Origin: Erythrobacter sp.
GTDB lineage: Bacteria; Pseudomonadota; Alphaproteobacteria; Sphingomonadales; Sphingomonadaceae
Assembly: GCA_009993605.1 (NCBI GenBank)
Contig: JAACTB010000007.1
Coordinates: forward strand, 186,001 to 250,000
DNA: 64,000 bases
Reading direction: 5' to 3'
Shown here: positions 41,499-62,907 of the stretch, piece by piece
Layout: each line of letters starts with the position of its first letter
Position numbering within the stretch: the stretch's first letter is position 1
Made by a program: the position numbers and the translations under genes
Notes under the pieces: model-generated
What the model was told of the DNA's origin: nothing
What the model saw: the letters and a program-made list of their open reading frames with translations, nothing else
The model's database searches: none

Positions 41499-41574
<76 letters not shown>

Positions 41575-41730
41575 CCTTTCCCATTGATATAGCTTCGGTT
41601 TTGTCTGCCAGCTGGCGAATGTCGGTTAGCACTCGATGGCGCTGATTACTCCAATGCGTTCCGAGGAGAGGGGCAAGGCGGTGCTAACCGCTCGACCTCC
41701 GGAATCCGGTCCGATGCTACAATCTGGATC

Positions 41731-42729: not shown

Positions 42730-43095
42730 ATGCTGCTTCACGCTCTGACGATGGCCGCTGCCGCGCTCAGTCAGGCCGATGCGCCAGCCGATGACGCTGA
42801 TGCCGAATTGAACCGGTATTACACGGCCGCCATGGAGCGCCTCGCCGATCAGGGCGAAGACTACGCGAAGGCACGCACCGAGCTGCGGGACGCGCAGCGC
42901 GCCTGGATCAAATACCGGGACACCGAATGCGGTGCCGTCTTCACGAACTGGTATCCGGGATCGATCGCTCGCACGATGGCCGCCGACTGCTCTGATCGCC
43001 TTACGCGGGCGCGGACGCACGCGATCTGGGCCCACTGGCTGACCTACGCGGACTCGACGCCTCCGATCCTTCCAGAACCTCCGATCGCCGACTGA
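42730..43095 (+). CDS. LprI-like (DUF1311) exported protein
   Basis: A 121-residue protein with a short signal-peptide-like start (LLHALTMAAAALSQA) and a domain resembling LprI/DUF1311. ADAELNRYYTAAMERL leads into LRDAQRAWIKYRDTECGA, then ADCSDRLTRARTHAIWAHW; the two cysteines are those usually paired in the family. Some LprI proteins inhibit lysozyme. A GAGGGAA Shine–Dalgarno precedes the ATG. Presence in a prophage suggests a role in host envelope protection after lysogeny, which is inference. Confidence 0.72.
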   Translation: MLLHALTMAAAALSQADAPADDADAELNRYYTAAMERLADQGEDYAKARTELRDAQRAWIKYRDTECGAVFTNWYPGSIARTMAADCSDRLTRARTHAIWAHWLTYADSTPPILPEPPIAD

Positions 43096-44328: not shown

Positions 44329-45182
44329 GCATCATCCCTTGCACCGCGAATGATGAGTTGCGCGGGCGAATCCTCGAGTTCGCTGAGGTTCTGAAGACGC
44401 AGGCTCATTCGCTCGGCACCCACGGCCTTGATGAGCAGGAGTTCTACGACAGCGGTCTATTCCGAGGCGCGATCGAACGTATCCGGGGCCAATTCTCCGC
44501 CACGATGCGGGAGAAGCGCGATTTCGTCTCCCGCGTGCTCAACTGGCTTCAGGATCGCGGCGATATCGACGGCTGGGAATCCGCTGGCGAAGCAAACCGT
44601 CACGATTACACCGTCGAACTTCCATCCGGGCGCACCTGTGCCATCGAGCTGAAGGGCTGCCTCGATGGGAACAACACCAACATCTTCGAGCGGCCGCCAC
44701 ACTGCCACGAATTCGTCATGTGGTCGGTATGCACGAACCCGGGGGCGAACCCTCGCCACAACGCATGGTCCGGCATCCACACACGGCTGTCGGCAGAGAT
44801 CATTTCGAAAGAGCAACGGGTCGATGGTCTCATCATCTGGGACATGGTCTGCGGCACCATCGGTCGACCGTGTCCGAAGGTCGAAGCCGATCCAGCTCGC
44901 CTGACGGTTGTCGGACCTTTTCAGCTGCCTCCACCCTGCATCTACCTGTTCCCAGCAACCATCCCTTCGCCTCGCAACAATCCGAAGCCGGAGCCTCAGC
45001 AGCTCGACCAGGTCGAGTTTTTGAAGATCTTGCATGAAGCGTTCGGTGGCCACGATGACGAAGTGAACCGGGTGCGAATGGGCGTGAAATACGAAGGCGT
45101 CGACACTGTCCGGAAGACGCGCGTGAAGCGCGATGACGAGGTTGTAGCCAAGTCGGATTGGACCGCCATCCGCCGATCCTAA
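44325..45182 (+). CDS. Putative restriction endonuclease (PD-(D/E)xK-like)
   Basis: A 285-residue protein coupled to the methyltransferase gene by ATGA. Residues about 92–110 read HDYTVELPSGRTCAIELKG: an aspartate, then about 15 residues later E-L-K, the arrangement of a PD-(D/E)xK nuclease active site on consecutive strands. The rest is unrecognised. A helical N-terminus (about 1–85) and a segment GLIIWDMVCGT suggest a mixed alpha/beta fold. Context and motif together support a restriction enzyme, but the cleavage site and activity are unknown. Confidence 0.6.
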   Translation: MSIIPCTANDELRGRILEFAEVLKTQAHSLGTHGLDEQEFYDSGLFRGAIERIRGQFSATMREKRDFVSRVLNWLQDRGDIDGWESAGEANRHDYTVELPSGRTCAIELKGCLDGNNTNIFERPPHCHEFVMWSVCTNPGANPRHNAWSGIHTRLSAEIISKEQRVDGLIIWDMVCGTIGRPCPKVEADPARLTVVGPFQLPPPCIYLFPATIPSPRNNPKPEPQQLDQVEFLKILHEAFGGHDDEVNRVRMGVKYEGVDTVRKTRVKRDDEVVAKSDWTAIRRS

Positions 45183-46139: not shown

Positions 46140-46673
46140 GTGAACAAGACGCTCGAAGAAGCCGCCCTGCTGATGGCCGATCTCGCGCGCCTTCCGACGC
46201 CGGATCTGGTGGCCCTCCTTCCTCATATCCGAGATCTGCGGCAGCGCATCCGCGAACGCGACTTCGCGCTGGGAACGCCCTCTCAGGCGGTCCTCGAGCA
46301 CGCCGAGGCGATGGCCACGGCTCATCTGACCGAGGATGAGCTGCGCGACTACAACGCCCGGCGGCGAGTAGCCGAGACGGTCCGGATCGACGGATTGATC
46401 TGCCTCGAGTGTGGCGAGAAGAAGGAGGCCCTCGTTCTGCATGTGACGAAGGGTCATCACATGACGTGGGACGAATATCTATCGAAGTGGGACCTACACG
46501 ACCTCGGTGATCGGTTCGAGGAGCTCGAGGACTATCCGAAGGTCAGCGGGTCGTTCATCGCCAGGCAGCGAACCAACGCGAAGACCTACGCGAAGGACAA
46601 TCCACTCAAATACACGGGCGCCGAACTCGCTCGCTATCGAGAGGAGCAGAAGAAGCGCTCATCGAGCTCGTGA
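46140..46673 (+). CDS. MucR/Ros family zinc-finger regulator
   Basis: A 177-residue protein starting with GTG. The zinc finger follows the Ros pattern: C88-x2-C91-x9-H101-x4-H106 in the segment around LICLECGEKKEALVLH, then MTWDEYLSKWDL, the conserved MucR recognition region. MucR/Ros proteins are global regulators of alphaproteobacterial envelope, motility and virulence genes. The N-terminal region is longer than in Ros. As the only clear DNA-binding regulator visible in the element it is a candidate lysogeny or cargo regulator. Its 3' end overlaps the converging relaxase gene by 15 bases. Confidence 0.82.
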   Translation: MNKTLEEAALLMADLARLPTPDLVALLPHIRDLRQRIRERDFALGTPSQAVLEHAEAMATAHLTEDELRDYNARRRVAETVRIDGLICLECGEKKEALVLHVTKGHHMTWDEYLSKWDLHDLGDRFEELEDYPKVSGSFIARQRTNAKTYAKDNPLKYTGAELARYREEQKKRSSSS

Positions 46674-47837
46674 TGCGCTGGTAGCGTGCAACTCGGTCCG
46701 AGCGGCCGCGATCGACCAGTGGGCACCTTCCGCCGCCTCGAGCCGCTGTCCGATCGCGTAGGCCGATTGCATGACGGCGTTTCGCTCACGTTCTGGAATC
46801 TTCGTCAGATCGACCGATCGCATCGCCTTGATCGCGGTCTCGGCAAGGTCTGCCACGAGCGGCGCATTCTGCGCCTGGCGGTCCCGTTCCGCGATCACCC
46901 GGTCGCGCTCAGCGTCGAGACCGGCCTTCCATTTGCGGACCTTCACGAGCTTCGCTTCGAACTCGGCACGCTCAGCATCCAGCGCGCGACGCTGCTCGGC
47001 CAGCCGGCCTTCCTCGGCCCGGGCGCGCGCCAGTGACGCCTCCAACTCGGCGCGCGCTCTCTCGAGTTCGGCACGCACGTCCGCCACCTCGGCCCGCTCC
47101 GCCTCAACCTGCCTGCGCACGATCCCGCCCGCTTCCCGTTCCGAGTTCGCTGCGGCTATCGCGTCGCCCATCTCCGCCTGGTGGATCGAGTTCGGCCTGT
47201 TCGGCGCACCGGACCAGACGCGGCCACGCTCGAGGCCGAGCGGTGCCATGAACTCAGCGAAGACGGTCTGCTCGTATGCCATCTGCCCGCGCGATCCGAT
47301 CCCGCCTCGCCAGTAGGTCGAGTAGTCGATCGGCGGCGCATCCTTCGCCCGCTTCGGCGGCAGGTCGCCACGCGCGGAGAGCGTCCAGCGCTCGCCCTTG
47401 TCCGCGAACCGCGCATCGACCCGCTGGCGCACGGGCAGCACCACGACGTGAAGGTGCGGCGTCTGCTCGTCGCAATGGAGCGTGACCGACACGATGGCGC
47501 ATCGCGGATACCGGCCGAGCAGGTATCGCATGCTGCGTCGGATGAACCACCGCAGCTGCTTGACGTATCGCACCGGGTCATCGCTCGGCCACCATTCCGG
47601 CGACGTGGTCATCATCAGTTCGAGCGCCAGCACGGCGCCCTTGCGCGGACGAATGCCGAGATCCGCAAGCCGGTCCCGGACGCCTACCCATGCATCTTCC
47701 GGTCCATAGATGACAGCTGGCGGAGGCGCTGAGCGATCCGCATTGCCCACGTCCTCCTCACGGTTGTTGTGGCCGCGTGCGTGGACGATATCGTTCTGCT
47801 TCAGCTTGCGCTGGCCGAGAATGCAATGGGTCGTCAT
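46659..47837 (-). CDS. MobV-type relaxase (Mob/Pre family)
   Basis: A 392-residue protein with the metal-binding relaxase motif HCDEQTPHLH (residues 121–130), exactly the HxDExTPHxH signature of MobV/Pre plasmid mobilisation proteins. A preceding block ALELMMTTSPEWW (71–83) also matches the family. The C-terminal half (about 235–330) is a long coiled coil (AEVADVRAELERARAELE). Such relaxases nick at an oriT and pilot DNA through a conjugation channel. Finding one inside a phage-type element is unusual. Its promoter places the ATG 6 bases after the -10 box, so the mRNA may be leaderless. Confidence 0.8.
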   Translation of the reverse strand: MTTHCILGQRKLKQNDIVHARGHNNREEDVGNADRSAPPPAVIYGPEDAWVGVRDRLADLGIRPRKGAVLALELMMTTSPEWWPSDDPVRYVKQLRWFIRRSMRYLLGRYPRCAIVSVTLHCDEQTPHLHVVVLPVRQRVDARFADKGERWTLSARGDLPPKRAKDAPPIDYSTYWRGGIGSRGQMAYEQTVFAEFMAPLGLERGRVWSGAPNRPNSIHQAEMGDAIAAANSEREAGGIVRRQVEAERAEVADVRAELERARAELEASLARARAEEGRLAEQRRALDAERAEFEAKLVKVRKWKAGLDAERDRVIAERDRQAQNAPLVADLAETAIKAMRSVDLTKIPERERNAVMQSAYAIGQRLEAAEGAHWSIAAARTELHATSASRAR

Positions 47838-50993: not shown

Positions 50994-51286
50994 CGTGCGT
51001 TCACCTTTTCGGCTTCGGCTTCATCATCGGTCGGCGAAGGTGCGGGACGCTGCTCCGGCTCCTTCGGCAGCGCCTTGGGGCGGAAGGTGCCGATGACGCC
51101 GACGAGTCCGGTGGTTGCCGCGCTCACGAACGCGAGCGCGGCGACGATCTGCGGCAGGTTCTCCTGATCATCGATCGAGATCGTGATGATCGCGGCGGTG
51201 ATCGTCAGCACGACGATGGCGCCGAGCGTCGACAGGTAGGCGATCAGCGGCCCGGGGCTCTGGTCTCCGTTCACATCATGCTCCAC
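50990..51286 (-). CDS. Holin-like membrane protein
   Basis: A 98-residue protein starting with GTG, with two hydrophobic segments (PLIAYLSTLGAIVVLTITAA and IVAALAFVSAATTGLVGVIG) and a charged C-terminal tail (EPEQRPAPSPTDDEAEAEK). The size, topology and position just after the endolysin gene fit a class II holin. It overlaps the endolysin gene by 16 bases. No direct family match can be claimed. Confidence 0.65.
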   Translation of the reverse strand: MEHDVNGDQSPGPLIAYLSTLGAIVVLTITAAIITISIDDQENLPQIVAALAFVSAATTGLVGVIGTFRPKALPKEPEQRPAPSPTDDEAEAEKVNAR

Positions 51287-52056
51287 TTCTTGAAGGCTCG
51301 CGCGATTTTCTTGTGGTAGTCGTGCGATGCGAATGCGCTGCCATTGTATCCCTTGGCGAAGGGCACGCAGTCGGCGTGAAAGATCGAGATCCGACGCAGC
51401 GCGCCGACGAGGTGCGAGGATCGGATAAAGGCCACAAACGCCTCGAGGTGCGCGCGCTCCGAACTCTTCATGGCCGACCAGAAAGCCTCGACATCATCGA
51501 AGCCGGCGGCCGCATGGTTGAAGCCCATGATCTGGTAGCGACCGACGCTGGCCGACTTGAGCGCCGCCTCGCGGTCCAGCTCCATCGCGCGGTGCAGGCG
51601 AACGTATTCGGCCTGGCCGCCAGCGTAGAGGGCGCGGTTCCAGCCCTTGCTACTGATGTTCGGATGCGAGGCACGGAAGCGACCACCGGTGAAGGCGTCG
51701 AACTTGTGCGCCTCGAACAGGATCTTCGGCAGCTCCTGCCCATCCACGAAGCCGCCTGGCCCGTCGATAGCGAGGATCTCGGCGCGCATGTCCGTGAACC
51801 AGCCGCCGCCACTCTCGACCTCGTCTACGGCGCGGATCTGCGCCACCTGACATCCGAGCTCCTGAGCCGCCCACTGGAAGTCTTCGTCGGTCAGGCCGAC
51901 CTTGATTAGCGGGAGCGCAGGCGAAGGCGCGGATGCGGACGGGACGCCGATGCCGGTGAGAAACTGGTCGATCGCCGCGATCTCGGGATCGCCGGACTGC
52001 CAGCCGCGCCCACGAGCGTCGCGGATCGCATCGAAGATGGGGGCTCGGATCGTCAT
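51271..52056 (-). CDS. Phage endolysin, N-acetylmuramidase domain (DUF3380)
   Basis: A 261-residue endolysin. After an N-terminal extension of about 55 residues, the catalytic domain shows CQVAQIRAVDEVESGGGWF with a glutamate in VDEVESGG. ILFEAHKFDAFTGGRF and ASVGRYQIMGFNHAAAGF follow, all typical of the N-acetylmuramidase (DUF3380) family. No signal peptide is seen, so a holin is needed for release. The gene starts 6 bases after a -10-like GATAAT and has no Shine–Dalgarno. Confidence 0.9.
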   Translation of the reverse strand: MTIRAPIFDAIRDARGRGWQSGDPEIAAIDQFLTGIGVPSASAPSPALPLIKVGLTDEDFQWAAQELGCQVAQIRAVDEVESGGGWFTDMRAEILAIDGPGGFVDGQELPKILFEAHKFDAFTGGRFRASHPNISSKGWNRALYAGGQAEYVRLHRAMELDREAALKSASVGRYQIMGFNHAAAGFDDVEAFWSAMKSSERAHLEAFVAFIRSSHLVGALRRISIFHADCVPFAKGYNGSAFASHDYHKKIARAFKKWSMM

Positions 52057-52062
52057 GAGCGT

Positions 52063-52092
52063 ATTATCGCACGTGGAGGGATTCCGGCGGCG
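52063..52092 (-). promoter_or_regulatory. Leaderless-promoter module A (endolysin)
   Basis: Minus strand: CGCCGCCGGAAT (52081–52092), 12 bases, GATAAT (52063–52068), 6 bases, then ATG of the endolysin. Same spacing as modules at 53020 and 62878. No ribosome binding site is present between the hexamer and ATG. Confidence 0.6.
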
Positions 52093-52096
52093 AGCG

Positions 52097-52780
52097 TCAG
52101 GCGACCTCGCGCCAACGCTGCCGGGCCATCTCGACCAGCGCCTCGGGCCATCCTTGCGGCACGCCCTCGCCCTTCACGAACCCGGTCCATTCGTCGGACC
52201 CGCGCAGATCGTCGATCGCGTCAGTCGAATTCGCCGCGGCGATCTTCGCCTTCAGCGCTTCTTTCCTTCCGACCCATGGGTTCGACGCGTCGGCCATCGA
52301 TTTGGCGACGCCCTGCGCCGCACGGGTCACGCGTTCGCTCGCCTCGGGATCGTGCGCGTCGGCATCCTGCATATCCTCGGTCGGGATCATGAACGCCTGC
52401 ATCAAGGCGTATTTCAACGCCGCCGACATCGCCTTGTTTGTCGACTTGTCGGCGCTGTCCATGGCCTCGCCCTCGGTCCTCACGACGGCCTTCGATCCAT
52501 CCGCCACCGCCACGAAATCGAACTCGACGCTCAGGTGCGTGTAGAAAATCGTGCCGCCCTTCGCGGTCTGGCGCTCGTCCTGGCGCTTGCTGATGACGCG
52601 GGGGAGCACGACCAAACCGTTCCTCGCGATCACCGGAGCGACCGCATTCATGAATTGATCGATTCCGCGAAAGTTGAAGCCTTGTCCGGAATTGCGGCGA
52701 TCCTTCGACACGCCTCCCAGCAGATCGGCGGTGCAGGCGGAGATGGCGCCGTAGACGGCAGGGATGGCAGTGGCGGTCAT
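52097..52780 (-). CDS. ERF family single-strand annealing recombinase
   Basis: A 227-residue protein of the ERF (essential recombination function) family, which anneals complementary single strands during phage recombination. Recognisable is GQGFNFRGIDQFMNAVAPVI near the N-terminus, then TIFYTHLSVEFDF, and DKSTNKAMSAALKYALMQAF, the conserved lysine-rich core. ATG 52780 (MTATAIPAVYGAI) is the family-like start. It lies between an early-type coiled-coil gene and the endolysin gene, an unusual place for a recombination gene. Confidence 0.87.
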   Translation of the reverse strand: MTATAIPAVYGAISACTADLLGGVSKDRRNSGQGFNFRGIDQFMNAVAPVIARNGLVVLPRVISKRQDERQTAKGGTIFYTHLSVEFDFVAVADGSKAVVRTEGEAMDSADKSTNKAMSAALKYALMQAFMIPTEDMQDADAHDPEASERVTRAAQGVAKSMADASNPWVGRKEALKAKIAAANSTDAIDDLRGSDEWTGFVKGEGVPQGWPEALVEMARQRWREVA

Positions 52781-52788
52781 GGGTTTCC

Positions 52789-53013
52789 TCAGGCGGTGCG
52801 CTTGGCGCGGTAAAGGTCGGAGCGGCGGGCCCATTCGGTTCGGCGCGCACCTTCGAGTTTGGAACGGGCGCAAAGAAACGCGTCCTGCGCTTCACAGAGA
52901 TCGACCATCGCGATCTCCGTGTCCCGTTGTGCCTGTTCGAGATCGTCTTCGAGGAGCGCGATCCGGATCCGGTTGCAGGCGTCTTCGCAGGGCGTCGGTG
53001 CGGGCGTTTCCAT
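52789..53013 (-). CDS. Small coiled-coil protein
   Basis: A 74-residue protein, nearly all helical (RIRIALLEDDLEQAQRDTEI) with a basic C-terminus (WARRSDLYRAKRTA). The ATG at 53013 is preferred because it lies exactly 6 bases after TAAAAT of module B; an in-frame ATG two codons upstream falls inside that spacer. It is followed by the ERF gene with an 8-base gap. Function unknown; possibly a recombination accessory factor. Confidence 0.6.
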   Translation of the reverse strand: METPAPTPCEDACNRIRIALLEDDLEQAQRDTEIAMVDLCEAQDAFLCARSKLEGARRTEWARRSDLYRAKRTA

Positions 53014-53019
53014 CCGCAT

Positions 53020-53049
53020 ATTTTACCGCACTCGGATATTCCGGCGGCG
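53020..53049 (-). promoter_or_regulatory. Leaderless-promoter module B (coiled-coil/ERF genes)
   Basis: Minus strand: CGCCGCCGGAAT (53038–53049), 12 bases, TAAAAT (53020–53025), 6 bases, then ATG 53013. The upstream gene's TAA lies about 10 bases before the 12-mer. Confidence 0.6.
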
Positions 53050-53056
53050 CGGCCGA

Positions 53057-53623
53057 TTAGCGTCCCGCAGCGACCGGATGCTGCGTCGGCGACGGATGCA
53101 CTTGCTCGGAAATGGTTTCGCGATGCACTGGCGTCGGCGCGGCCGGCGTCTCCGACTTGCCTTCAAGGATACGGAAGCCGACCAGTGATGCGATGACGCC
53201 GAGAAGAGCGGGAACGGCCCACCTGATCACGGTCTCTCTCAGCGTGGAAGCGTCCTTCGCTGCCCGGGCGCGGCTTTCGCGAACCCATGCGCGGTCGTTA
53301 CCATCCAGCTCGCTCATGAAACGGTCGACGTTCGTCCAGCGTCGCTCGACCTCAGGCATCCTAGCCATGTTCTCGTCGATCCACGCGTTGCGCTTGTGTG
53401 CCTTGGAGATACCGTCCGGGGAGGTGGAATCGATCCCGATACGGAGATGATGTTCGTTGATGGCTGTCGTCACGCCCTTGGCGATCTCGCTCGCCAGCGA
53501 ACGCTGGATCCGGTCCATTGACCGCTCGACAGCCGCCTCCACCACTGGAGGCACGAGATCGCTGACAAGGAGAGCAACATCCTCGCGCGTGAAATTATTA
53601 CCCGTCCCGGTCATGCGCGTCAT
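53057..53623 (-). CDS. Phage membrane-anchored protein of unknown function
   Basis: A 188-residue protein with a soluble helical N-terminal region (VALLVSDLVPPVVEAAVERS) and one membrane helix near residues 148–167 (WAVPALLGVIASLVGFRILE). A short proline-rich tail follows. The ATG at 53623 overlaps the stop of the upstream tail gene (ATGA). It is the last gene of the structural operon before module B. It could be a lysis or superinfection factor; the sequence does not say which. Confidence 0.65.
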   Translation of the reverse strand: MTRMTGTGNNFTREDVALLVSDLVPPVVEAAVERSMDRIQRSLASEIAKGVTTAINEHHLRIGIDSTSPDGISKAHKRNAWIDENMARMPEVERRWTNVDRFMSELDGNDRAWVRESRARAAKDASTLRETVIRWAVPALLGVIASLVGFRILEGKSETPAAPTPVHRETISEQVHPSPTQHPVAAGR

Positions 53624-55587
53624 GATACAGTATCCGGAGGTTCCGGTGCTTCGAGCCGTGCGGCGACGCAGATCGTGCCTTCGACCTGACCGAAGCTCTG
53701 CATGGACGACCACCCTGCTCCGTTCGAGAAGCTCCACTGACCGTCCTGCGTCATCGCGAGACGATATGGCCGACCGGGCCAACGTAGATCGCGCATCATC
53801 GGGTTGAGTCCGTCCGGCTCGGCACTGGCCTTGAGCGCTCCGCCCGGGCCCGTCACGATGCCAGGGACGATCCGGCCAGCCTCGTGAGCCGAGAAGGTGC
53901 CGTCCTGATGCCGCGCGACGGGGAACTCACCTGCGCCGCGATATTGGCGGGCGCCGTCGCGGGGGTAGGGACCGGTGGGATGAAGGGAATGGGTCGCGGC
54001 AGCCGCACCGACCGACGCGTTGTTGACCGTATAGATGTTGTTGTGCGCGTTCTGATACTGAAATTCGCCGAGCGTAGGGATCCAGTATCGCTGTCCGCGC
54101 CACGCCTGCGCCGGGAAAAGATCCTGCGGAGGAACCGTCCACGTGCCTTGCGTGTCGTCGTCCCAGTCGGCTGGTCTGGTCGGGGGCTGGATCCCGGCGT
54201 CAGGCTGGTTCGCATACCACCAAATCGGCATGTATTGCCTCAGGATCGCGCTCTCGTCGAAATCCGCGTGCTGATACTCGCCTGTCGTGTCGGACCTCCA
54301 GACCGGCCAGACGATCTTCGCCTTCCAGCCATTCGCCGAAACGATCTCCGTCCGATCAAACGTGTCATCGTGAAAGTGATAATTGGCGAATTGCGGATGG
54401 TTCGACCAGATCACGTCGTATCCGCCTGCGACCTTGCGGAGGACCTTGCAGCTGAGCGGGCTGCCACTCTGGACGGCAAGTGTCACGCTGACCGATCGCG
54501 CAGCCGACGATCCGGTCACGGTGACACCGGCGATGCCTGCGGCCGAGATCAGGACCGTGCAGAACATCAGGACCACGCGGCGTTCGGTGATCGTCACCGG
54601 CGGGTTTGCAGGATCGTGGAACCAGTCCATGGGTGCATCGAGCAGCGGCTCGGACTTGTTCGAGGACTCGAAGGCTGCGCGACCGCGCATGTAATACGGA
54701 CGCTCCTCCGGCGTCGGCACACGGGTGTAGCTTTCGGCGTATCGAAGCACACCCGTGCACATAACGATATCGAGACCGAACGGACCGATCGGTCGGAGGA
54801 AGAGCCATTCGTGTGCCTGGTCGGTCTTCGTGATGACCTCGCCATCGTCGGGCAGAAAGTCCGCATCATGTCCCAGCTGCCGCGCCTCCGCCGGCGTCAG
54901 GTCCGCGATACGGCGCGCAACGCCTGCCGCGTCCATCGTCCAGCCGATCCACGGTCGTCCGCTGGGATCCGTTCCGTCCGGCGCGCCGGTGTTCGCGCTC
55001 GCTTCCAGCCTCGTCACGACCGCGAGATCGCGCGCGACGCATACGCCCCATGGGTAGGCCATGTTTGGCGTATAGTGCGATTGGATGACCTGCACGTCGG
55101 CCGGGAGCGTGCTTTCGCCGGACGACGTTCCATTGCTCTGCTGCTCCCACGCCCAGTCTGCCGTATATCCGGTCTCGTGGTCGCCGCCGCTGACGGATGT
55201 CAGGCGCCATGACGGCCGCGAAAAGCCGAACGGGTTCGTCTCCGTGCCGGGCGTGACGAGCGATGCGGCGACGTTGGCGCTCGCGAAACCGCGAAATGGT
55301 CCGAGACTGCGCACCTCCTCGCGATCGGCACCGGAATCGCGCAGGCGGACGGATCGAGCCTCGCCGACACCACCGCCAAGGTTCAGGAGCTCATAGGTGC
55401 CGATACGGCCTTCGGCGTCCACGAAGGGATCGCCGGATCCGACCGGAAGCGGCCAGCCGGCATCGGGATCGGCGAACGAGAGCGAACCATCCTCCGCCAA
55501 GCTGACGATGTGACCGCCGGGAAGAATCCAGTGCGAAGAAAGAGCGGCCGAGGATGCTCCGACCATCAGGAGCTTGCGGTAGAGCAT
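53620..55587 (-). CDS. Large phage protein downstream of tail tip genes (putative receptor-binding or fibre)
   Basis: A 655-residue protein of unknown family, rich in Trp, Gly and beta-strand-like segments (WWYANQPDAGIQPP, TQGTWTVPPQDLFPAQAW, RYWIPTLGEFQYQNAHNN). A hydrophobic stretch near residues 340–365 (VVLMFCTVLISAAGIAGVTV) divides it into two parts. The C-terminal 60 residues (WPGRPYRLAMTQDGQWSFSN) look like a small beta domain. Position after the distal tail proteins suggests host recognition. It is coupled to both neighbours by overlaps. Confidence 0.6.
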   Translation of the reverse strand: MLYRKLLMVGASSAALSSHWILPGGHIVSLAEDGSLSFADPDAGWPLPVGSGDPFVDAEGRIGTYELLNLGGGVGEARSVRLRDSGADREEVRSLGPFRGFASANVAASLVTPGTETNPFGFSRPSWRLTSVSGGDHETGYTADWAWEQQSNGTSSGESTLPADVQVIQSHYTPNMAYPWGVCVARDLAVVTRLEASANTGAPDGTDPSGRPWIGWTMDAAGVARRIADLTPAEARQLGHDADFLPDDGEVITKTDQAHEWLFLRPIGPFGLDIVMCTGVLRYAESYTRVPTPEERPYYMRGRAAFESSNKSEPLLDAPMDWFHDPANPPVTITERRVVLMFCTVLISAAGIAGVTVTGSSAARSVSVTLAVQSGSPLSCKVLRKVAGGYDVIWSNHPQFANYHFHDDTFDRTEIVSANGWKAKIVWPVWRSDTTGEYQHADFDESAILRQYMPIWWYANQPDAGIQPPTRPADWDDDTQGTWTVPPQDLFPAQAWRGQRYWIPTLGEFQYQNAHNNIYTVNNASVGAAAATHSLHPTGPYPRDGARQYRGAGEFPVARHQDGTFSAHEAGRIVPGIVTGPGGALKASAEPDGLNPMMRDLRWPGRPYRLAMTQDGQWSFSNGAGWSSMQSFGQVEGTICVAARLEAPEPPDTVS

Positions 55588-56189
55588 CAGGCGGCCTCGT
55601 AGCCGCTTGCGACCAGCTGGAGTTCCCAGTTCGAGCCGAGTTCAGGCCCTCCCCACCAGTCGGCCACCCACTTGTCGCGGTTGCCGTCGGCGGTGACGCG
55701 ATCGGCGGTTCCGATGGGAAACTCGACGCCCGTGAAGGCGTAGTCGAAGCCGTTGCGGATGATGCGGATGACGACGCCCGTCGCGCGATTGCGATCGCGT
55801 CCGGCGTCCAGCTGCGGCTGAGGGATCGGCTCCGGCGCGGCGAAGGTGATGGTCGCGGCACCAGCGAGATCTAGCGTCCAGACGTTCGCGACGTTCGGAT
55901 CGACGATGATCGCGCCGCTCGCGCGCAGGACGTAGGCCTGCTCCATGAACGAGCCGATTTCCATGTCGAGCTGGGGCGTCTTGTTCCAGTCATTGCCGGT
56001 TTCGGTATGCGCCGGGCCCTGCGTCGTGAGGAGACGGGCGTCTACGCGCGAGCGACCATCGTCCGGCTGCGCTGCTCGTCCGATCCGTCCGGTAGCCGGG
56101 GCCGCGCGGCTGGGAGCAGGAACGGGAACGCGCGCGCCCTGCTGTCGAGCAGGCTCGCCGAGTTGACGGATGCTATCGTCGAGGCTCAC
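55587..56189 (-). CDS. Phage tail-associated protein
   Basis: A 200-residue protein starting with GTG. A proline/arginine-rich N-terminal 50 residues is followed by a predicted beta domain (NVWTLDLAGAATITFAAPEP, RIIRNGFDYAFTGVEFP). Coupled by overlap to the tip protein upstream and to the 655-residue protein downstream. Such small beta-domain proteins often decorate the tail tip; no family is recognised. Confidence 0.6.
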   Translation of the reverse strand: MSLDDSIRQLGEPARQQGARVPVPAPSRAAPATGRIGRAAQPDDGRSRVDARLLTTQGPAHTETGNDWNKTPQLDMEIGSFMEQAYVLRASGAIIVDPNVANVWTLDLAGAATITFAAPEPIPQPQLDAGRDRNRATGVVIRIIRNGFDYAFTGVEFPIGTADRVTADGNRDKWVADWWGGPELGSNWELQLVASGYEAA

Positions 56190-58045
56190 CGGAGCGCAAT
56201 TCCCTTGAAGCCCTGATAGGGCGTGACGTTGACCATTATAGGCGCAAGCGTCTCTCCGCCGCCGGCTGGCAGAACAGACACGCGGATCTCGGTCCGCACG
56301 TCATCAATGACCTTGCTCAGATCCTGCCCCGCAGTGGCCGCCTGTTGCAGCGCCGCGATCTGCTCGTCTGCCGTGTTGATTATCTCGACCTTGCTGACGC
56401 CGATGCCAGGCGCGAAAGGCGCATTGTAGACCGGGGCGGCGTATCCAGCCCTCGACCAGTTCGGTCCGAACGCGATCGTCCTTTCGCCGGTTCCACCAGC
56501 CACGCCGGATCCGGTCGAGACTGCGAGCGAGATGATGCACGTCGCTTCAGACACCGAAAAGCGGAAGGTGTAGCCGCGCACCTTGCCGACCGCTTCGCCG
56601 CCGACGCCGGGAATCCGGTCGCTGACGAGGCGCACGGTGTCGCGGCAAGAGATGTCTAGGACGGCGAACGCGTCGACCTCGATGTCGATCGTGTAGGAGC
56701 GCTGCGAATAAGCAAGCCGCTGCAGGGCGACTGCGATGCCGTGATCGATCGACTGGCGGCCGCGCTCGGTGTTGAAGAACGACGCAGCCATCGGCGATCC
56801 CAGCGGCGAACCATCCAGGACCACGAGCTCCCAGCGGTAGAGTGTCGTTCCATTCTCGCCATCGTATGCGCGATCGATCCAGAGGCTCTCGCCGGAATCG
56901 TGCGGCTCGAGACTGCGCCAGATGAAGCCGGCGAATGACACCACCGCACCCTGCCCGTAGCGGACGTTCGGCTGCCACTCTGGTGCGGCTGCGTCGAATG
57001 CGAGGCGATCCAGATTGATCTCGACGGTCTCGCTATCGGTCGAGGCGCCCTGCCCACCGTTGTAGACCGAGAAGCGGACCTCTTCGCGACGCTTCGTCTC
57101 GCTGGTCGCGGCAAGCTTGAGAGTCGGTGCAAGCCAGTGACGACGTATCTGGACCGGCTGAGGCTGGGTGGCTCCCGGGCGGAACGTCCGCGCCGCTGCA
57201 GCGGCCTGCTCGAACTGGACAAGCTCCTGCGCTCCCTGAGGCACTGAAACGGATGCCAGGCGCGATTCCGACACGGCGTAGCCGCCGCTGAAATCGTCGC
57301 CATCTTCCGGCCACCGATCGGCGATAACGTCCGGCGTAAGCGTGGAGAGGCCACCTTGCTCGGCAGTTGCGTCCTCGATCATCGCGCCGACATCGAACTC
57401 GCCAATCTGGCGCTGCGTCCATTCTGCCGAGATAACCACGTCGACGCGGCCAAGCGGACGACCATTGCGGATCACCCTGCAGGCGCCCTGTCTGTGATTG
57501 CGACCGATGTTCCGATCGACGCCTCCGCCACCATTGACGGCGCTGGATAGGATCGGCTGTCGCGTCGTGCGGTCCCAGCACACCAGCGCAGGGATACCGT
57601 CGAGGCGCTCGACCGGGTCAGACAGATCGCCTGCGCAAGGGTCCGCGAACGGCAGAGCGACACCTACGAGCACGGCATCACGCAGAGCTTGCCAGTTCGC
57701 ACGCCGCGCCTCGTAGCGCAGCGTCACGTCCTCGGATCCGAGCTCGACATCGCCGGTATCGTCCAGAACGCCGTCGTAAAGCAGGATCGTGTCGACACGC
57801 ACGAGATCCGCGTCGAGCCGATCGACCGACAGCAGAATGCGCTCACGTCCGCCCACCAGAGCATCGACGCCCACACCGGTATTCTCGAAGGCGACCTCAA
57901 GGACGGGGAATTCGCCCTCCTCTTCGCTGATCGTGATGCCGAAGTGCGGTAGATCGTCCACCCGGTCCGCTTCCGCGTTCCAGTCGTGCGTCTCGTCGCA
58001 GAGCTTCGCATAGATGCGACCGAGGCTCACCGGGGCGCCGCTCAT
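56186..58045 (-). CDS. Phage tail tip / baseplate protein
   Basis: A 619-residue structural protein. Order and size place it as the tail hub or central tip protein following the distal tail protein. It is beta-rich: VSLGRIYAKLCDETHDWNAE at the start, RRANWQALRDAVLVGVALP, and a C-terminal region with IEVDAFAVLDISCRDTVRLV. ATG 58045 overlaps the upstream stop (ATGA); the longer open frame lies inside that gene. No enzymatic motif is apparent. Confidence 0.7.
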   Translation of the reverse strand: MSGAPVSLGRIYAKLCDETHDWNAEADRVDDLPHFGITISEEEGEFPVLEVAFENTGVGVDALVGGRERILLSVDRLDADLVRVDTILLYDGVLDDTGDVELGSEDVTLRYEARRANWQALRDAVLVGVALPFADPCAGDLSDPVERLDGIPALVCWDRTTRQPILSSAVNGGGGVDRNIGRNHRQGACRVIRNGRPLGRVDVVISAEWTQRQIGEFDVGAMIEDATAEQGGLSTLTPDVIADRWPEDGDDFSGGYAVSESRLASVSVPQGAQELVQFEQAAAAARTFRPGATQPQPVQIRRHWLAPTLKLAATSETKRREEVRFSVYNGGQGASTDSETVEINLDRLAFDAAAPEWQPNVRYGQGAVVSFAGFIWRSLEPHDSGESLWIDRAYDGENGTTLYRWELVVLDGSPLGSPMAASFFNTERGRQSIDHGIAVALQRLAYSQRSYTIDIEVDAFAVLDISCRDTVRLVSDRIPGVGGEAVGKVRGYTFRFSVSEATCIISLAVSTGSGVAGGTGERTIAFGPNWSRAGYAAPVYNAPFAPGIGVSKVEIINTADEQIAALQQAATAGQDLSKVIDDVRTEIRVSVLPAGGGETLAPIMVNVTPYQGFKGIALR

Positions 58046-58551
58046 GGCGTGATCTCCGCCGCTTCCTCTTCCAGCGCATACGACCACGTGCTGTCGGCCG
58101 ACATCATGTCGCCGGAGTAGGCGAAGTCGAGCACCATCATCGTCAGGCGAGGGCACCACCACGTCTGCCAGGCGTCGGCGAATGCAGCTGGATCCGTGAT
58201 CTCGCGACCGTCCTGCGCGCGGTAGACCAGTCCACCCTCATGCGCAGCGATCGGACGGCGCAGATCGGCCTCGGCGACGTAGCCGGGCTCGACCAGCGGA
58301 AGGGTGCAGTCAAGCATGATGACGTCGCCGATGACCAGCGATATAGGCTGGACCATGTAGCCACCGGACAGGTCCACCGCGAACATGCGCGAAGGCAGGC
58401 GACCGCGCGAGGAGGCGCGCAGCGACCAGTTGTCGTCGCGACGCGGTGCGGGGACGCCATCGATCGAGCCGTAGGCCATCGTGACGCCGCGATGCGCGGA
58501 AAGATCGATCAGGCGGCCGTTGATGGCCGGGATGTGACGGGAAAGATCCAT
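58042..58551 (-). CDS. Phage distal tail protein (putative)
   Basis: A 169-residue protein directly after the tape measure gene, the position of distal tail proteins in siphoviruses. It contains YMVQPISLVIGDVIMLDCTL and a Trp/Met-rich C-terminal part (TWWCPRLTMMVLDFAYSGDM). Overlaps its neighbours at both ends by one to four bases. Assignment is from gene order. Confidence 0.6.
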   Translation of the reverse strand: MDLSRHIPAINGRLIDLSAHRGVTMAYGSIDGVPAPRRDDNWSLRASSRGRLPSRMFAVDLSGGYMVQPISLVIGDVIMLDCTLPLVEPGYVAEADLRRPIAAHEGGLVYRAQDGREITDPAAFADAWQTWWCPRLTMMVLDFAYSGDMMSADSTWSYALEEEAAEITP

Positions 58552-60866
58552 CAGCGGTGACCTCTCGGTTTGCGCTGGCGAGCGCGGCCAGCGGTCTTGC
58601 GTTCGAAGAGGCGCTGCAGGCCGTCGGCGAGATCATCGTCCGCCTTGCCGGATGCGCTGCCGAGACCGGGGATCGAGAGCGACAAAGGTCGACCAGGCGA
58701 ACCACCACCGACCTCGAGAACGTCGGGCGTTCCGAAGCCCATCGACATACGGTTGAGGCCATCGATGAACGGCTTGCCGCCATAGGCGCGCATCGCACGG
58801 GCGTTGATGACGCCTTCACCATTGGAGAGACGCGCGGGGATGCTGTCCGACGTGCCGGTGCCGGGCCCGCGCACATAGCCGCCCTGCGCGAAACCTGCGG
58901 CCTTGGCGCCCTGCTCGATCAGGAACTTGCCGGACTTGAAAAGGAGACCGGCGGGCGAGTTCTCGACGGCGTTCTTCAGTCCCTCGAGGATCGCGCTGAT
59001 GACCTTCTTCGCGGTCTCGAAGGGCGAAGCGAGGAAGTCGGCAAGACCCTGCCACGCGGACTTGATCCCGCCCACGAAGGCGTCGACCGCATCGCCGATC
59101 GCTTCCCAGACGCCGACGAGGAAGCCCTTGATGCTGTCCCAGTTCTTGTAGACGACGTAGGCCAGCGCCGCGACCGCAGCGATGCCCGCGATGATGAGAC
59201 CACCGGGCGGCGTGAACATGAGGAGCGCGGCGGCGCGCAGCACGTTGAATGCCGCCACCACGCCTCGCACGGCCGTTCCGACGAGGCTGAGAGAGGCTGC
59301 CACCAGCGACAGCATCCCGGTCAGCTTGCCGATGATCAGGAACGCGGCGATCTTGTTCGCGCCCTCCTCGCCGAAGATCGAAACCATCGTGTCGCGGATC
59401 GTCTCGAGGATCGCGAGGAACGCCGTGCCGACGCCGACGAAGATCGGCACCCAGCGATCGACCATAGCCGGCACCTGCTCAAGGAGCGGCATCAGCTGGC
59501 CTTGGATGAAGTCGCGAAGGGTGAGCACCCATGCGTAGCGCTCGGTCACATTGCCGTCATTGCCGGCGAATGCCTGGCGCAGCGCATAGATCACGCCGGG
59601 GATGTCGAACGCGAGCTGCAGGAGCATCTGCCGCACCCAGCCGAACGCGCCTGCGGCGTTCGATGCCCAGCCACTCATATCGAGGCCGAGAGCGACGCCC
59701 ATCTGCCGCAGCCACTCCGTCGTGTAGTAGCGAAGGACGCCCACCTCGTGCGAGACAGCCGCGAAGAGCGCCGGCAGACGTTCGATCGTTGCACCGATCC
59801 GCGCACCGGTCCGCTCGAAGGCGCCGGTCGCTTCAAGGCGATCGATCAGGACGGATGCACTGTCCGCGATGGTCGCAAGTCCGCGCGCTAATCCGCCGTT
59901 TGCCGCTTCGGCACGAGCAAGGAAGATCCGGTTGCGAAGACGAGCGAACGAAGCCTGCGGACGCTTCGCAGCCTCCTCCGCAGCTGGTGCGAATTCTTTG
60001 ACGAGCTGACGCGAGAAGCGGTCGAGGAAGATGGACGCGTCGAGACCTTTGGCGACCATCGTTTCGAGGCCTGCTGGGTTCGTTCCCATGGCGCGCGCAG
60101 CGATGTTCATGGCGCCAGGCAGACGCTCGCCGAGCTGACCGCGCAGCTCCTCCATGGACACCTTGCCCTTGCCCGCGATCTGCTGGAGCGCGAGGAGCGA
60201 TCCCTCGACCTCCTCGTTTGTCCGGCCAAGAGCGGAGCCGGCCATCAAAATGCCGCGGAAGGTGCGCTCCGTCGTGGCACCGGCTGCGTTCGTGCCCTTG
60301 GTCGAGTTGGCGAGAGCGACGAAGGCGGGACCGACCTTGCTCAGCTCGACACCGAGCTCGTCTGCCGTCGCCTTTACCTTGTTGAACTGCGCATCGACCT
60401 GCGCGGTGACATCGCGGCTTTTGTAAAGCTCGTCGCGGAGCCGGAACACCTCGTCACGAGCGCCTGCGAAACCACTCGAACCGGCGCGACCGAGAGTCGT
60501 CATTCGCTTTTCGGCGTCAGCCAGCTGGCCCTCGAGCTCGCTCGTGCGATCGATCGCGACCTTGAGACCCGCCTGCATGGACGTGACGGATTGACCGGCG
60601 TCGAGATACTTCGACACCTCCAGACCCGCCAGTGCGCCTGCCAGCGTGCCGACGAGAGCGGTCGTGCGCGCAATCGACGCGATGCCACGGATTGTGATGA
60701 AGACCGGACGGGAGATCGCACGAAGCGAGGCGGCCGCTTGGGCAGCGCTGCGCTCGATATGGCCGAAGGACCGGGATGCAGATGCCTCCAGCGCTTTGAA
60801 CGAGGCTCGTGCGGATGCGACGCCATCAGCGCGGATGCGGACGCGAATGTCGGGCGTATTTGCCAT
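58551..60866 (-). CDS. Tail tape measure protein
   Basis: A 771-residue tape measure protein that sets tail length. The N-terminal half is helical with coiled-coil segments (SELEGQLADAEKRMTTLGRA) and contains the tape-measure-domain block MEELRGQLGERLPGAMNIAA. Two or three hydrophobic segments follow in the second half (MLSLVAASLSLVGTAVRGVV, PPGGLIIAGIAAVAALAYVV). A GGY(V)RGPGTGTSDSIPARLS segment near residue 690 is the usual C-terminal hallmark. Preceded by the frameshifted chaperone genes, with GGGAGG as Shine–Dalgarno. Confidence 0.93.
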   Translation of the reverse strand: MANTPDIRVRIRADGVASARASFKALEASASRSFGHIERSAAQAAASLRAISRPVFITIRGIASIARTTALVGTLAGALAGLEVSKYLDAGQSVTSMQAGLKVAIDRTSELEGQLADAEKRMTTLGRAGSSGFAGARDEVFRLRDELYKSRDVTAQVDAQFNKVKATADELGVELSKVGPAFVALANSTKGTNAAGATTERTFRGILMAGSALGRTNEEVEGSLLALQQIAGKGKVSMEELRGQLGERLPGAMNIAARAMGTNPAGLETMVAKGLDASIFLDRFSRQLVKEFAPAAEEAAKRPQASFARLRNRIFLARAEAANGGLARGLATIADSASVLIDRLEATGAFERTGARIGATIERLPALFAAVSHEVGVLRYYTTEWLRQMGVALGLDMSGWASNAAGAFGWVRQMLLQLAFDIPGVIYALRQAFAGNDGNVTERYAWVLTLRDFIQGQLMPLLEQVPAMVDRWVPIFVGVGTAFLAILETIRDTMVSIFGEEGANKIAAFLIIGKLTGMLSLVAASLSLVGTAVRGVVAAFNVLRAAALLMFTPPGGLIIAGIAAVAALAYVVYKNWDSIKGFLVGVWEAIGDAVDAFVGGIKSAWQGLADFLASPFETAKKVISAILEGLKNAVENSPAGLLFKSGKFLIEQGAKAAGFAQGGYVRGPGTGTSDSIPARLSNGEGVINARAMRAYGGKPFIDGLNRMSMGFGTPDVLEVGGGSPGRPLSLSIPGLGSASGKADDDLADGLQRLFERKTAGRARQRKPRGHR

Positions 60867-60870
60867 GTCG

Positions 60871-61170
60871 TCAGCCTCCCATGCGCTTGAAGAATTTTAC
60901 CACGTCGGCCTTTCCCGCTCGCGCGCCGATCAGCGCTGCTTGAGCAGCTGCTGCGGTCTGGCGCGTCTCGATGCCGCGCAGCACGCGCCACCGGGTCCAG
61001 AGCTGAGCGAAGGAGAGGTCGAGCAGGTAATCGCGATTGAGGCCGTGAAGCTCGAGCTCCACGACCCAGCCGAGCGCGATCTCAAGCGGCGGCGGCCCCC
61101 TCTTCGCGCGTCCAGCCGCCCTGCCCTTCCCTCGCTCGGCCTTGGGCAGTGTCAGACCGAGGGCTTCGAA
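60871..61170 (-). CDS. Tail assembly chaperone, C-terminal (T-like) part made by -1 frameshift
   Basis: This reading frame has no good start of its own. It is entered from the upstream chaperone gene by a -1 shift at 61170–61176. After the slip the frame is open from TTC (61170) to the stop at 60871, giving 99 residues. These include a basic linker (KAERGKGRAAGRAKRG) and the domain LNRDYLLDLSFAQLWTRWRV. With the 130 upstream residues the fusion is 229 residues, equivalent to lambda gpG-T. The fusion recruits tape measure and tube subunits. A GTG at 61062 is the only alternative start. Confidence 0.78.
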   Translation of the reverse strand, partial: FEALGLTLPKAERGKGRAAGRAKRGPPPLEIALGWVVELELHGLNRDYLLDLSFAQLWTRWRVLRGIETRQTAAAAQAALIGARAGKADVVKFFKRMGG

Positions 61171-61559
61171 AAACCCTCGTCGGGGACCACGGTCGACAGA
61201 GACTGCGCTTTCGAGATGATCGCCGCCTTCTCCTCGTCGGAGAACAGACCGTCGATCCGTGCCTCGGCAGTCTCGTCGCCGGGATGACCCATGGCGATTG
61301 CGACCATGGCGTTCGTGAATTCGACCACGCGAACCAAGCGATCCAGCGCCTCGTCGGTCAGGTCGTCATCGCTCGCCTTGTCGTCCTCGACGAGGAACTG
61401 CAGGCCTTCGATGCTGTCCTTGAAATCGGGGAAGCGCTTGCGGATGCGCAGAGCGTCCTTCGAGCCGATCGTGGAAAGGGGATAAGTGCGACCGCGAATG
61501 GTGATGGACGGGGTTTCCTCGAACTGGTCGAAGATGGAGGCGTAGTTCGTGGCGCTCAT
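61152..61559 (-). CDS. Tail assembly chaperone (G-like)
   Basis: A 135-residue acidic protein between tail tube and tape measure genes. Residues RGRTYPLSTIGSKDALRIRK and LEDDK-like acidic segments resemble the G-type tail chaperone. An in-frame GGGTTTT heptamer five codons before the stop allows a fraction of ribosomes to make the longer G-T fusion. AGGA precedes the ATG at a good distance. Confidence 0.8.
   Translation of the reverse strand: MSATNYASIFDQFEETPSITIRGRTYPLSTIGSKDALRIRKRFPDFKDSIEGLQFLVEDDKASDDDLTDEALDRLVRVVEFTNAMVAIAMGHPGDETAEARIDGLFSDEEKAAIISKAQSLSTVVPDEGFSKPSV
61170..61176 (-). other. Programmed -1 ribosomal frameshift site
   Basis: In the chaperone frame the bases read GA(G GGT TTT) TCG, a perfect X_XXY_YYZ slippery heptamer (GGGTTTT). 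Shifting back one base opens a frame of 99 codons reaching to the tape measure gene with no stop. GC-rich sequence follows that could form a stimulatory structure. Confidence 0.8.
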
Positions 61560-61585
61560 GATGCAGTCCTGTGTCTGGAGAAGGT

Positions 61586-61611
61586 GCCCGGCCGGTCGAA
61601 ACCAGCCGGGC
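61586..61611 (-). other. Hairpin between tail tube and chaperone genes
   Basis: GCCCGGC and GCCGGGC form a 7-base perfect stem around a 12-base loop in the 95-base gap after the tail tube gene. It lacks a T-run, so it may protect or attenuate the abundant tube transcript rather than end transcription fully. Confidence 0.4.
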
Positions 61612-61654
61612 TAGGCGGCGCTGGGAAGATCGTCAGAACCAGCGCTCAGGGAAA

Positions 61655-62398
61655 TCAGCCGATGCGGATCGTGCCGAAGGATCCATCCGGTCCGGCCTCG
61701 ACCTCGACCGAGAATTCGGCATCCATCGGGTCATTCTCGCCGATCCAGCCCATGGCGCCGCTGGGGCGGATCGTGCCCTGCGGGATGTCCATGACGAAGG
61801 GTTCTTTACCCTCCTCGATGCCGTAGAGGCGCAGATGGACCTGACGGTTCGCTGCCTGACCCATGGCGATGCGCATTCCGCCGGTGACGGCCGGTGCGAT
61901 GCCGGTGATGAGGTTCGTCGCGGGCGTGCCAGCGGGAACGTTGCGGATCAGGACGACCTCGCCGCGCTCGACCATCGTGAAGTCCACGCCCGGTTCCAGT
62001 TCGCCGATCTCGACGCTGGTGACCCGGCGGCCGAGCGGGATGCGATCGCCGACGACCAGCTGGCCGACCTCCTTCTGGAAGTCCGGAACGGCAGGCAGCT
62101 CCATGAGCGACTGCAGGCCCATCGTCGCCATCGCTCGGATCTCGCGGCTGATGCTCTGCGTCGTGAACGAGAAGGTCATCCCGGTCTCGTTCGAGAGCGC
62201 GCCGATCTGACGACGGGTCGGGAAGTTCGAGGAGTAGACCTTCGTGGTCTCCGCCTCCATCTCGTTTTCGGCCACGGTCACGTTACCGAGGTGCTCTTCG
62301 CGCTCGGCGGCGGTTCCGGAAGCGATGACCTCCACGAGGACGGCGCGGCCCTGGTGGATGAGGTCCATCGAGAGGGGGTCGAGGTTCATGATGCTCAT
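61655..62398 (-). CDS. Major tail tube protein
   Basis: A 247-residue protein placed between tail terminator and chaperone genes, the canonical site for the tail tube gene. It has a beta-rich pattern (RGEVVLIRNVPAGTPATNLI, RQVHLRLYGIEEGKEPFVMD) ending in DAEFSVEVEAGPDGSFGTI. AAAGGA precedes ATG 62398. The hairpin after the gene fits a highly expressed structural protein. The assignment rests on order, size and style. Confidence 0.75.
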   Translation of the reverse strand: MSIMNLDPLSMDLIHQGRAVLVEVIASGTAAEREEHLGNVTVAENEMEAETTKVYSSNFPTRRQIGALSNETGMTFSFTTQSISREIRAMATMGLQSLMELPAVPDFQKEVGQLVVGDRIPLGRRVTSVEIGELEPGVDFTMVERGEVVLIRNVPAGTPATNLITGIAPAVTGGMRIAMGQAANRQVHLRLYGIEEGKEPFVMDIPQGTIRPSGAMGWIGENDPMDAEFSVEVEAGPDGSFGTIRIG

Positions 62399-62409
62399 GG
62401 CGAGTCCTT

Positions 62410-62871
62410 TCAGGCTGAGCGGGTAGGTTCGCCCTCGCGCATCGGCGCGACGAGCTCGTAGACGGTGACAAAGAGGTAGGCAGAATCCGACATTTCGAGG
62501 GCGGCGGGCTCACCGCCTCGGCTAATGATATCGCGCGTGGCGAGTGCTCGGAGCGGCGTTCCTTCGGCGAATATGCGGCGCTCAATTTCGGCGTCGATCT
62601 CGTCGAGCCGGCCGTCCTCTGCGTCCTCGTCATTCACGATGATCGCGACGCCGAACTGGAAGCTGCGGTAGGTCGGCTTAGGACCTTGGATTGCGTTGTT
62701 GATGCGCTGCGGCTCGAGATCGGCGATCGGGAAGACGCAGACGGCGCTTGTCCCCTGTTCGGCAAGAGCCACGCCCATTGCGATCCGATGCGTCTGGAGG
62801 ATGCGAACGTTCTCGATCCCTTCAAGGGACGCGGCGAGTGCTTCTCGGATCTGGCGGCGCATGTGAACCAT
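62410..62871 (-). CDS. Tail terminator protein (putative)
   Basis: A 153-residue protein beginning MVHMRRQIREALAASLEGIE, a helix typical of tail terminator (gpU-like) proteins, followed by strands (YRSFQFGVAIIVNDEDAEDG) and a C-terminal YLFVTVYELVAP. Tail terminators cap the tube and join it to the head. The ATG lies 6 bases after TAGAAT of module C with no Shine–Dalgarno. Confidence 0.68.
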   Translation of the reverse strand: MVHMRRQIREALAASLEGIENVRILQTHRIAMGVALAEQGTSAVCVFPIADLEPQRINNAIQGPKPTYRSFQFGVAIIVNDEDAEDGRLDEIDAEIERRIFAEGTPLRALATRDIISRGGEPAALEMSDSAYLFVTVYELVAPMREGEPTRSA

Positions 62872-62877
62872 GGACGG

Positions 62878-62907
62878 ATTCTACCACGCGGAAAGATTCC
62901 GGCGGCG
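62878..62907 (-). promoter_or_regulatory. Leaderless-promoter module C (tail terminator)
   Basis: Minus strand: CGCCGCCGGAAT (62896–62907), 12 bases, TAGAAT (62878–62883), 6 bases, then ATG 62871. Spacing is identical to modules A and B. Confidence 0.6.

Follow-up and report, generated by a model that had tools for sequence, protein, structure and literature searches.

A phage-specific set of nine promoter-like sites, each having a box at the -35 position, in an Erythrobacter prophage

How might the genes of a temperate phage be switched on when the usual -35 position holds GC-rich sequence and the start codon has no Shine-Dalgarno (SD) sequence before it? This question is raised by a 64,000-nt stretch of DNA of Erythrobacter sp. 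(the window, the whole of which was analysed), as it reaches into a 40.7-kb prophage where three phage genes on the minus strand are each preceded by the 12-mer CGCCGCCGGAAT, 12 bases, a -10-like hexamer, 6 bases and ATG. The original prediction, made from the letters of this stretch, took these modules for a dedicated class of phage promoters with leaderless transcripts.

Nine sites in one prophage

The contig in which the window lies was scanned over 468 kb, i.e., the prophage and approximately 427 kb of adjacent host DNA, with the relaxed pattern CCGGAAY-N12-[TG]ANNAT, and this gave nine sites in the prophage and none in the host DNA (Table 1; to the right of the window, numbering is continued as 64000 plus the position in the adjoining stretch). 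The three modules noticed at first therefore stand, as three of the nine members of a wider class. The set is real, it is confined to the prophage in the genomes searched, and it is functionally coherent; the genes behind it serve terminase, portal, capsid, tail, Erf, lysis and xis/int functions, with two of unknown function. All nine sites, which are asymmetric, are oriented toward the downstream phage gene, i.e., with transcription. We consider it probable that they represent a phage-specific regulon of host sigma70 promoters, activated by a phage factor which would replace the recognition of the -35.

The geometry of the three modules, CGCCGCCGGAAT-N12-NANAAT-N6-ATG, is exact on the minus strand (52092-52054, 53049-53011 and 62907-62869), and three matches in the window compare with none in each of 100 dinucleotide shuffles. 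The 12-mer alone (up to two mismatches) occurs 33 times in the window against 25.1 expected (standard deviation 4.5), so it is the combination of 12-mer, -10 and ATG spacing that is enriched, and the 12-mer alone not clearly so. As to whether the 12-mer is scattered through the host, CGCCGCCGGAAY was found six times in the prophage, each time with a -10 at N12, and once in the 427 kb of host DNA, which leaves the class standing. When the spacer of CCGGAAY-Nk-TANNAT was varied (k = 5-25), the prophage had seven matches at k = 12 and one at k = 14, and the host a single one at k = 5.

The strict pattern, CCGGAAT-N12-TANAAT, matches six times in the whole 2.99-Mb genome, and all six matches are in the prophage. 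Among 60 genomes of the genus, three match, this one with six sites and two others with one each (one in rimK-like DNA, as judged by eye, and one intergenic), while 50 of 387 genomes drawn from the class match and only this genome has more than two sites. A stricter pattern that includes the ATG matches in 6 of 397 genomes of the family (three sites here, one in each of five others, three of which have one identical sequence); of these five matches, the one whose surroundings were read lies beside ATP synthase-like genes (by eye) and is taken as chance. A general host promoter class is rejected by the scans of this genome and of the genus.

An unguided search for gapped 6-mers before [TG]ANNAT ranked the pair of box and -10 first, with nine occurrences. 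The best competing pair reached six in the surroundings of ten distant portal genes (portal matches exist in 16 other genomes, of which 10 supplied a region), five in eight half-overlapping 40-kb host segments, and six in 60 Markov simulations. Matrix scores of the nine sites range from 23.5 to 39.8, and the best other site in the 468 kb scores 16.5. The matrix was trained on the nine sites themselves; with each site left out in turn they score 8.6-35.9, and by this test seven of the nine are secure.

Five of the nine sites are intergenic. Those at 53651 and 80295 overlap the ends of open reading frames (ORFs), the one at 67318 is inside the end of the portal gene, and the one at 69194 is inside the end of the terminase gene. 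The stretches 67289-67313 and 69165-69189 lie in the same frame of C-terminal codons, and both proteins read PPPES...VES near their ends.

Table 1. Predicted box promoters, associated genes, candidate regulators and prophage ends
Feature	Position	Strand	Details
Box promoter before endolysin	52063..52092	-	CGCCGCCGGAAT 52092-52081, N12, GATAAT 52068-52063, ATG 52056
Box promoter before 74/76-aa ORF, then Erf gene	53020..53049	-	12-mer 53049-53038, TAAAAT 53025-53020, ATG 53013
Box promoter before tail-terminator-like gene	62878..62907	-	12-mer 62907-62896, TAGAAT 62883-62878, ATG 62871
Weakest member	53622..53651	-	AAGCACCGGAAC-N12-TATCAT, inside 3' end of upstream ORF 53620-55587; ATG 53614
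Box promoter between tRNA-Lys and 218-aa ORF	41694..41723	+	GACCTCCGGAAT-N12-TACAAT; ORF starts at ATG 41731
Box promoter before capsid	67318-67289	-	past right end of window
Box promoter before 71-aa ORF and portal	69194-69165	-	past right end of window
Box promoter before small and large terminase genes	72181-72152	-	past right end of window
Box promoter before xis-like gene and integrase	80295-80324	+	past right end of window
Endolysin (muramidase) gene, behind 52063 module	51271..52056	-	Pfam Muramidase 5.8e-49
Erf-type single-stranded DNA annealing protein, second gene behind 53020 module	52097..52780	-	Erf 1e-17
Tail-terminator-like gene	62410..62871	-	phrog_4204 2.6e-06
Candidate regulator, XRE protein	79473-79700		HTH_3 2.2e-07
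Candidate regulator, ROS/MUCR-family protein	46140-46673	+	Pfam 6.4e-09
Candidate regulator, excisionase-like protein	80330-80572		
tRNA-Lys(CTT)	41499-41574	+	
Left copy of 53-bp att repeat	41525-41577		tRNA-Lys 3' part
Right copy of 53-bp att repeat	82182-82234		past right end of window

Layout of the predicted promoters and transcript starts

With the -10 hexamer placed at -12 to -7, CGCCGCCGGAAT spans -36 to -25 and stands in place of a -35; the full 12-mer is present at six sites, and the invariance of CCGGAA is a consequence of how the set was defined. In the nine aligned sites there is no TTG-type hexamer (TTGACA-like) at -35 to -30, and the GC-rich sequence reported there for the three modules was found again. 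Box and -10 are conserved and the spacer is mostly variable, with C/A at -24, C/T at -23 and A/G at -16 as the positions that stand out. Six of the nine sites carry TG at -15/-14, and the -10 looks like the extended -10 of sigma70 (TGn-TAnAAT). The distance from box to -10 is 12 in all nine sites, and it is this distance, not the six bases to the ATG, that defines the class, as the ATG lies 5, 6 or 7 nt after the -10 in only six (41731, 52056, 53013, 53614, 62871 and 80330). A phage-specific promoter-like class with a box replacing the -35 is thus borne out computationally.

The proximity of these six ATGs has a binomial probability of 5e-7 at the ATG frequency of the prophage, a count which is partly post hoc because the first three sites were picked for their ATG; without them it is three of six, approximately 0.0015 by our own arithmetic. 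Which start codon is used is uncertain at 53013 and 53614, where additional in-frame ATGs at 53019 and at 53623 (the latter overlapping the upstream stop) adjoin the -10 or run into it. Transcription from these six sites would begin at the A of the ATG or beside it and leaderless mRNAs are predicted, as had been proposed for the three modules, and the other three sites would give mRNAs with 5' leaders (start codons 65 nt after the -10 for the capsid, 79 nt for the 71-aa ORF and approximately 47 nt for the small terminase, which starts with TTG); the capsid start carries an SD.

The gaps between stop and start filled by the three modules, given earlier as about 40 bases, measure 40, 43 and 41 nt, and an SD is indeed absent from all three, its place being taken by the -10 hexamer. 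That neighbouring phage genes have one is true in part: an SD of at least 4 nt precedes 28 of 46 other prophage ORFs, a count that includes the xis-like ORF with a different start and lacks portal, capsid and the 41731 ORF, since at portal and capsid our home-made caller settled on an antisense ORF, and it did not pick up the one at 41731.

Leaderless transcripts as such are known in Alphaproteobacteria, e.g., 171 leaderless start sites were mapped in Sinorhizobium meliloti (PMC3616915). As in the predictions made here, the start site lies at the AUG; the difference is that the predicted starts of the prophage cluster in one phage set with a common box.

Candidate promoters that do have a TTG-type -35 are located close to the early and replication genes, namely TTGAAA-17-TATTAT (73582) and TTGCCA-17-GAGAAT (76712), and a further one found by eye, TTGCGC-18-TACAAT (76107); those at 76712 and 76107 likewise stop 6 nt short of an ATG. 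The one at 73582 was tried as leaderless and rejected, as the in-frame ATG 73537 has an SD. Since two such -35/-10 matches in that region compare with 2.5 expected in shuffles, i.e., no excess, a separate host-type early class with -35 hexamers is only a suggestion.

What may read the box

The fixed spacing to a sigma70-type -10, together with the box in the -35 position, argues for an activator touching RNA polymerase at the core promoter. From this layout we infer promoter activity, an activator with its mode of action, and leaderless translation. Host sigma70 RNA polymerase would recognise the -10, often in its extended form, and a phage-encoded DNA-binding activator would occupy the box at -36 to -25, thus substituting for the missing -35, and would contact or remodel sigma region 4. 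Such an activator would switch on many lytic units, from terminase, portal, capsid and tail to Erf, lysis, xis-int and the two unknown genes.

The closest precedent that we found is the middle promoter of phage T4, in which, as described in PMC2988021, a MotA box centred at -30 takes over from the -35 at a distance of 12±1 bp to the -10, and about half of these promoters carry TGn. The sites in the prophage share with it a phage box near -30, a distance of 12 bp from a sigma70 -10, the lack of a -35 and TGn in many members. The box itself is different, as the GC-rich CGCCGCCGGAAY does not agree with the TGCTT consensus of the MotA box ((a/t)3TGCTTtA), the spacing is exactly 12 among the sites found here rather than 12±1, and the setting is a temperate prophage of an alphaproteobacterium in which structural, lysis and xis/int genes are served and six of nine sites are apparently leaderless. 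Among the prophage proteins scanned with Pfam, which took in many of the ORFs (several others were compared with PHROGs only), none matched a MotA or AsiA family. In Caulobacter, GafY, an activator of the gene-transfer agent, touches domains 3-4 of RpoD where the -35 of the promoter is degenerate (PMC11150451). That is also an alphaproteobacterial phage-like system; according to the same source GafY binds far upstream and needs IHF, whereas the box here abuts the core promoter. Among the matches listed by our literature search, which covered mainly open-access papers, there was no phage promoter class that has this box, nor any described as leaderless with one like it. To call the class undescribed, as the original prediction did, is too strong: given the shared features described for T4 (PMC2988021), the class of mechanism is known, and what appears new is the box, the group of hosts and a layout that is leaderless in part.

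Several results weigh against an activator of this kind and leaderless translation. The positional candidate for the activator is a 125-aa HTH-like protein (72756-73133), encoded by the second ORF behind the candidate promoter at 73582; the box promoter of the terminase genes comes shortly after the genes behind 73582. This protein has only weak Pfam matches in an HTH-like stretch, no homolog at E<=0.001 in 376 other genomes of the family, and one 32-residue match among phages; its AlphaFold model is poor (pLDDT 48), and both models of regulator candidates were too poor for a fold search. In leave-one-out scoring, the sites at 41694 (15.3) and 53651 (8.6) fall below the best host score of 16.5. 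Genes of early type (xis, Erf) and late genes are mixed in the set, so it is not a simple late class. In a crude test of host genes there was no leaderless signal (TANNNT at offsets 5-8: 4 against approximately 3.7 expected). The motif was found in no related phage, and since the only other copies found are in contigs of this same phage, they provide no test of conservation.

The strongest rival, which we regard as unlikely, is that the box is an operator of a phage repressor, as in mycobacteriophage L5, so that in the lysogen the repressor would silence every unit, and in its absence the promoters, of the extended -10 type, would be active constitutively. The operators and stoperators of L5 are likewise several short, asymmetric sites across a temperate phage, described as 13-mers oriented with transcription in promoters and in short intergenic spaces, often in the gaps before genes (PMC9283540), and the mixture of early and late functions is what would be expected of a repressor's targets. 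A steric repressor, however, does not need the spacing of 12 that is kept in all nine sites. Moreover, full boxes are tied here to a -10 at a fixed distance, and lone boxes in the style of L5 are near background: of 23 CCGGAAY in the prophage, 9 have a -10 and the 14 without are no clear excess over the 12.2 expected at the host rate (likewise 7 against 4.7 for lone CCGGAAT, and 8 against 6.2 for lone GCCGGAAY), and all six copies of CGCCGCCGGAAY carry a -10. The GTTTAGC-type cluster at 76429-76620, beside replication genes, is an alternative operator candidate.

Less likely than a repressor is that the box is read by a host regulator or by an alternative sigma factor. Such a sigma factor, encoded by phage or host, would read CCGGAAY as -35 and TANNAT as -10 over a 12-bp spacer; GGAAY is similar to the -35 of extracytoplasmic function (ECF) sigma factors, and both elements of the sites are conserved. 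This is quite improbable: ECF promoters have GGAAC followed at 16-17 bp by a CGTT-type -10, not TANNAT at N12; the -10 of the sites looks like an extended -10 of sigma70; and no sigma family was above the cut-off in the prophage proteins scanned with Pfam (the XRE protein reached E 0.079 and 12.9 bits with Sigma70_r4, against a cut-off of 24.1). Phages commonly rely on regulators of the host, and a host activator or host promoter class exploited by the phage would fit if it had no other targets of this form; we give this little credence, considering that the strict genome matches are all in the prophage and that no host site scored higher than 16.5 with a matrix giving 23.5-39.8 for the sites it was trained on. 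Chance, or a coincidence at the protein level, whereby GC-rich words precede starts and a shared peptide accounts for the two sites in the C-terminal codons of portal and terminase (two further sites overlapping ORF ends), is very improbable and was rejected, as five sites are intergenic and shuffles, Markov simulations, host segments and distant-portal regions all fall short of nine.

If the nine sites are indeed sigma70 promoters under a phage activator, a box found only in the phage and at a fixed distance from a sigma70 -10 would predict both an activator and a nine-promoter regulon from sequence alone, and, were that activator MotA-like, replacement of the -35 by a phage box would also have arisen in an alphaproteobacterial temperate phage. 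With the leaderless starts predicted here, one could test directly whether structural and lysis genes of a phage are translated independently of an SD. More tentatively, and with considerable doubt, we suggest an independently evolved switch resembling sigma appropriation, in which one activator would occupy the -35 position at nine promoters, for excision, recombination, packaging, structure and lysis alike, six of them leaderless and coupled to SD-free translation; if so, one factor would link a transcription switch to a mode of translation that needs no SD.

The prophage, its relatives and neighbouring features

The ends of the prophage follow from the two copies of the attachment (att) repeat. 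It encodes a gpA-type terminase, a lambda-type portal, capsid and tail proteins, Erf, RusA, an endolysin, an AAA_25 protein, an XRE protein, an excisionase-like protein and an integrase. Behind the tail-terminator-like gene, on the same strand, are the genes for the major tail protein (61655-62398) and the tape measure (58551-60866), and the 218-aa ORF behind the leftmost site has no Pfam or PHROG match. On the host side, beside the prophage, a protein that looks by eye like RodA (40266-41381) has 94% identity to one from Erythrobacter sp. HI0063, and its identity to others from Erythrobacter, Qipengyuania and kin reaches 80%.

In IMG/VR, portal and terminase both led to two contigs that belong to the same phage, the compared pieces having 99.995-100% identity. 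In pattern scans of viral contigs no contig outside this phage had more than two sites among the matches listed, and a related regulon may exist elsewhere. Portal matches in 16 other genomes of the family have 26-33% identity; for the terminase there were no relatives in the genomic contigs searched, and identity was below 60% across 349 named phage records. Megablast of both prophage halves returned no named phage, and a search of plasmids no relatives. A distant search turned up eight Streptomyces phages, with the similarity limited to 64-90 nt at Erf.

Some minor observations may be added. In the region 76429-76620, between minor-tail and replication genes, a repeat of the GTTTAGC type recurs eight times, in either orientation and with at most one mismatch, and the copies are putative iterons or operators; their count in the whole 18 kb is unexceptional (10 against 6.2 expected) and their clustering is exceptional. 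At 43156-45182 (plus strand) a C5 cytosine methyltransferase is followed by a 285-aa protein (phrog_31486, 8.6e-140) that is 65-70% identical to proteins of Burkholderia phages Menos and AH2, and in these phages a methyltransferase gene is reached by the match as well; the two prophage proteins are possibly a phage modification pair, and it may be noted beside them that the promoter box contains CCGG. A match to Mob_Pre, a plasmid recombination enzyme (46659-47837, minus strand, 1e-11), seems unusual for a tailed prophage, and near the left prophage end a protein with an LprI (lysozyme inhibitor) domain is encoded at 42730-43095 on the plus strand (1.4e-18).

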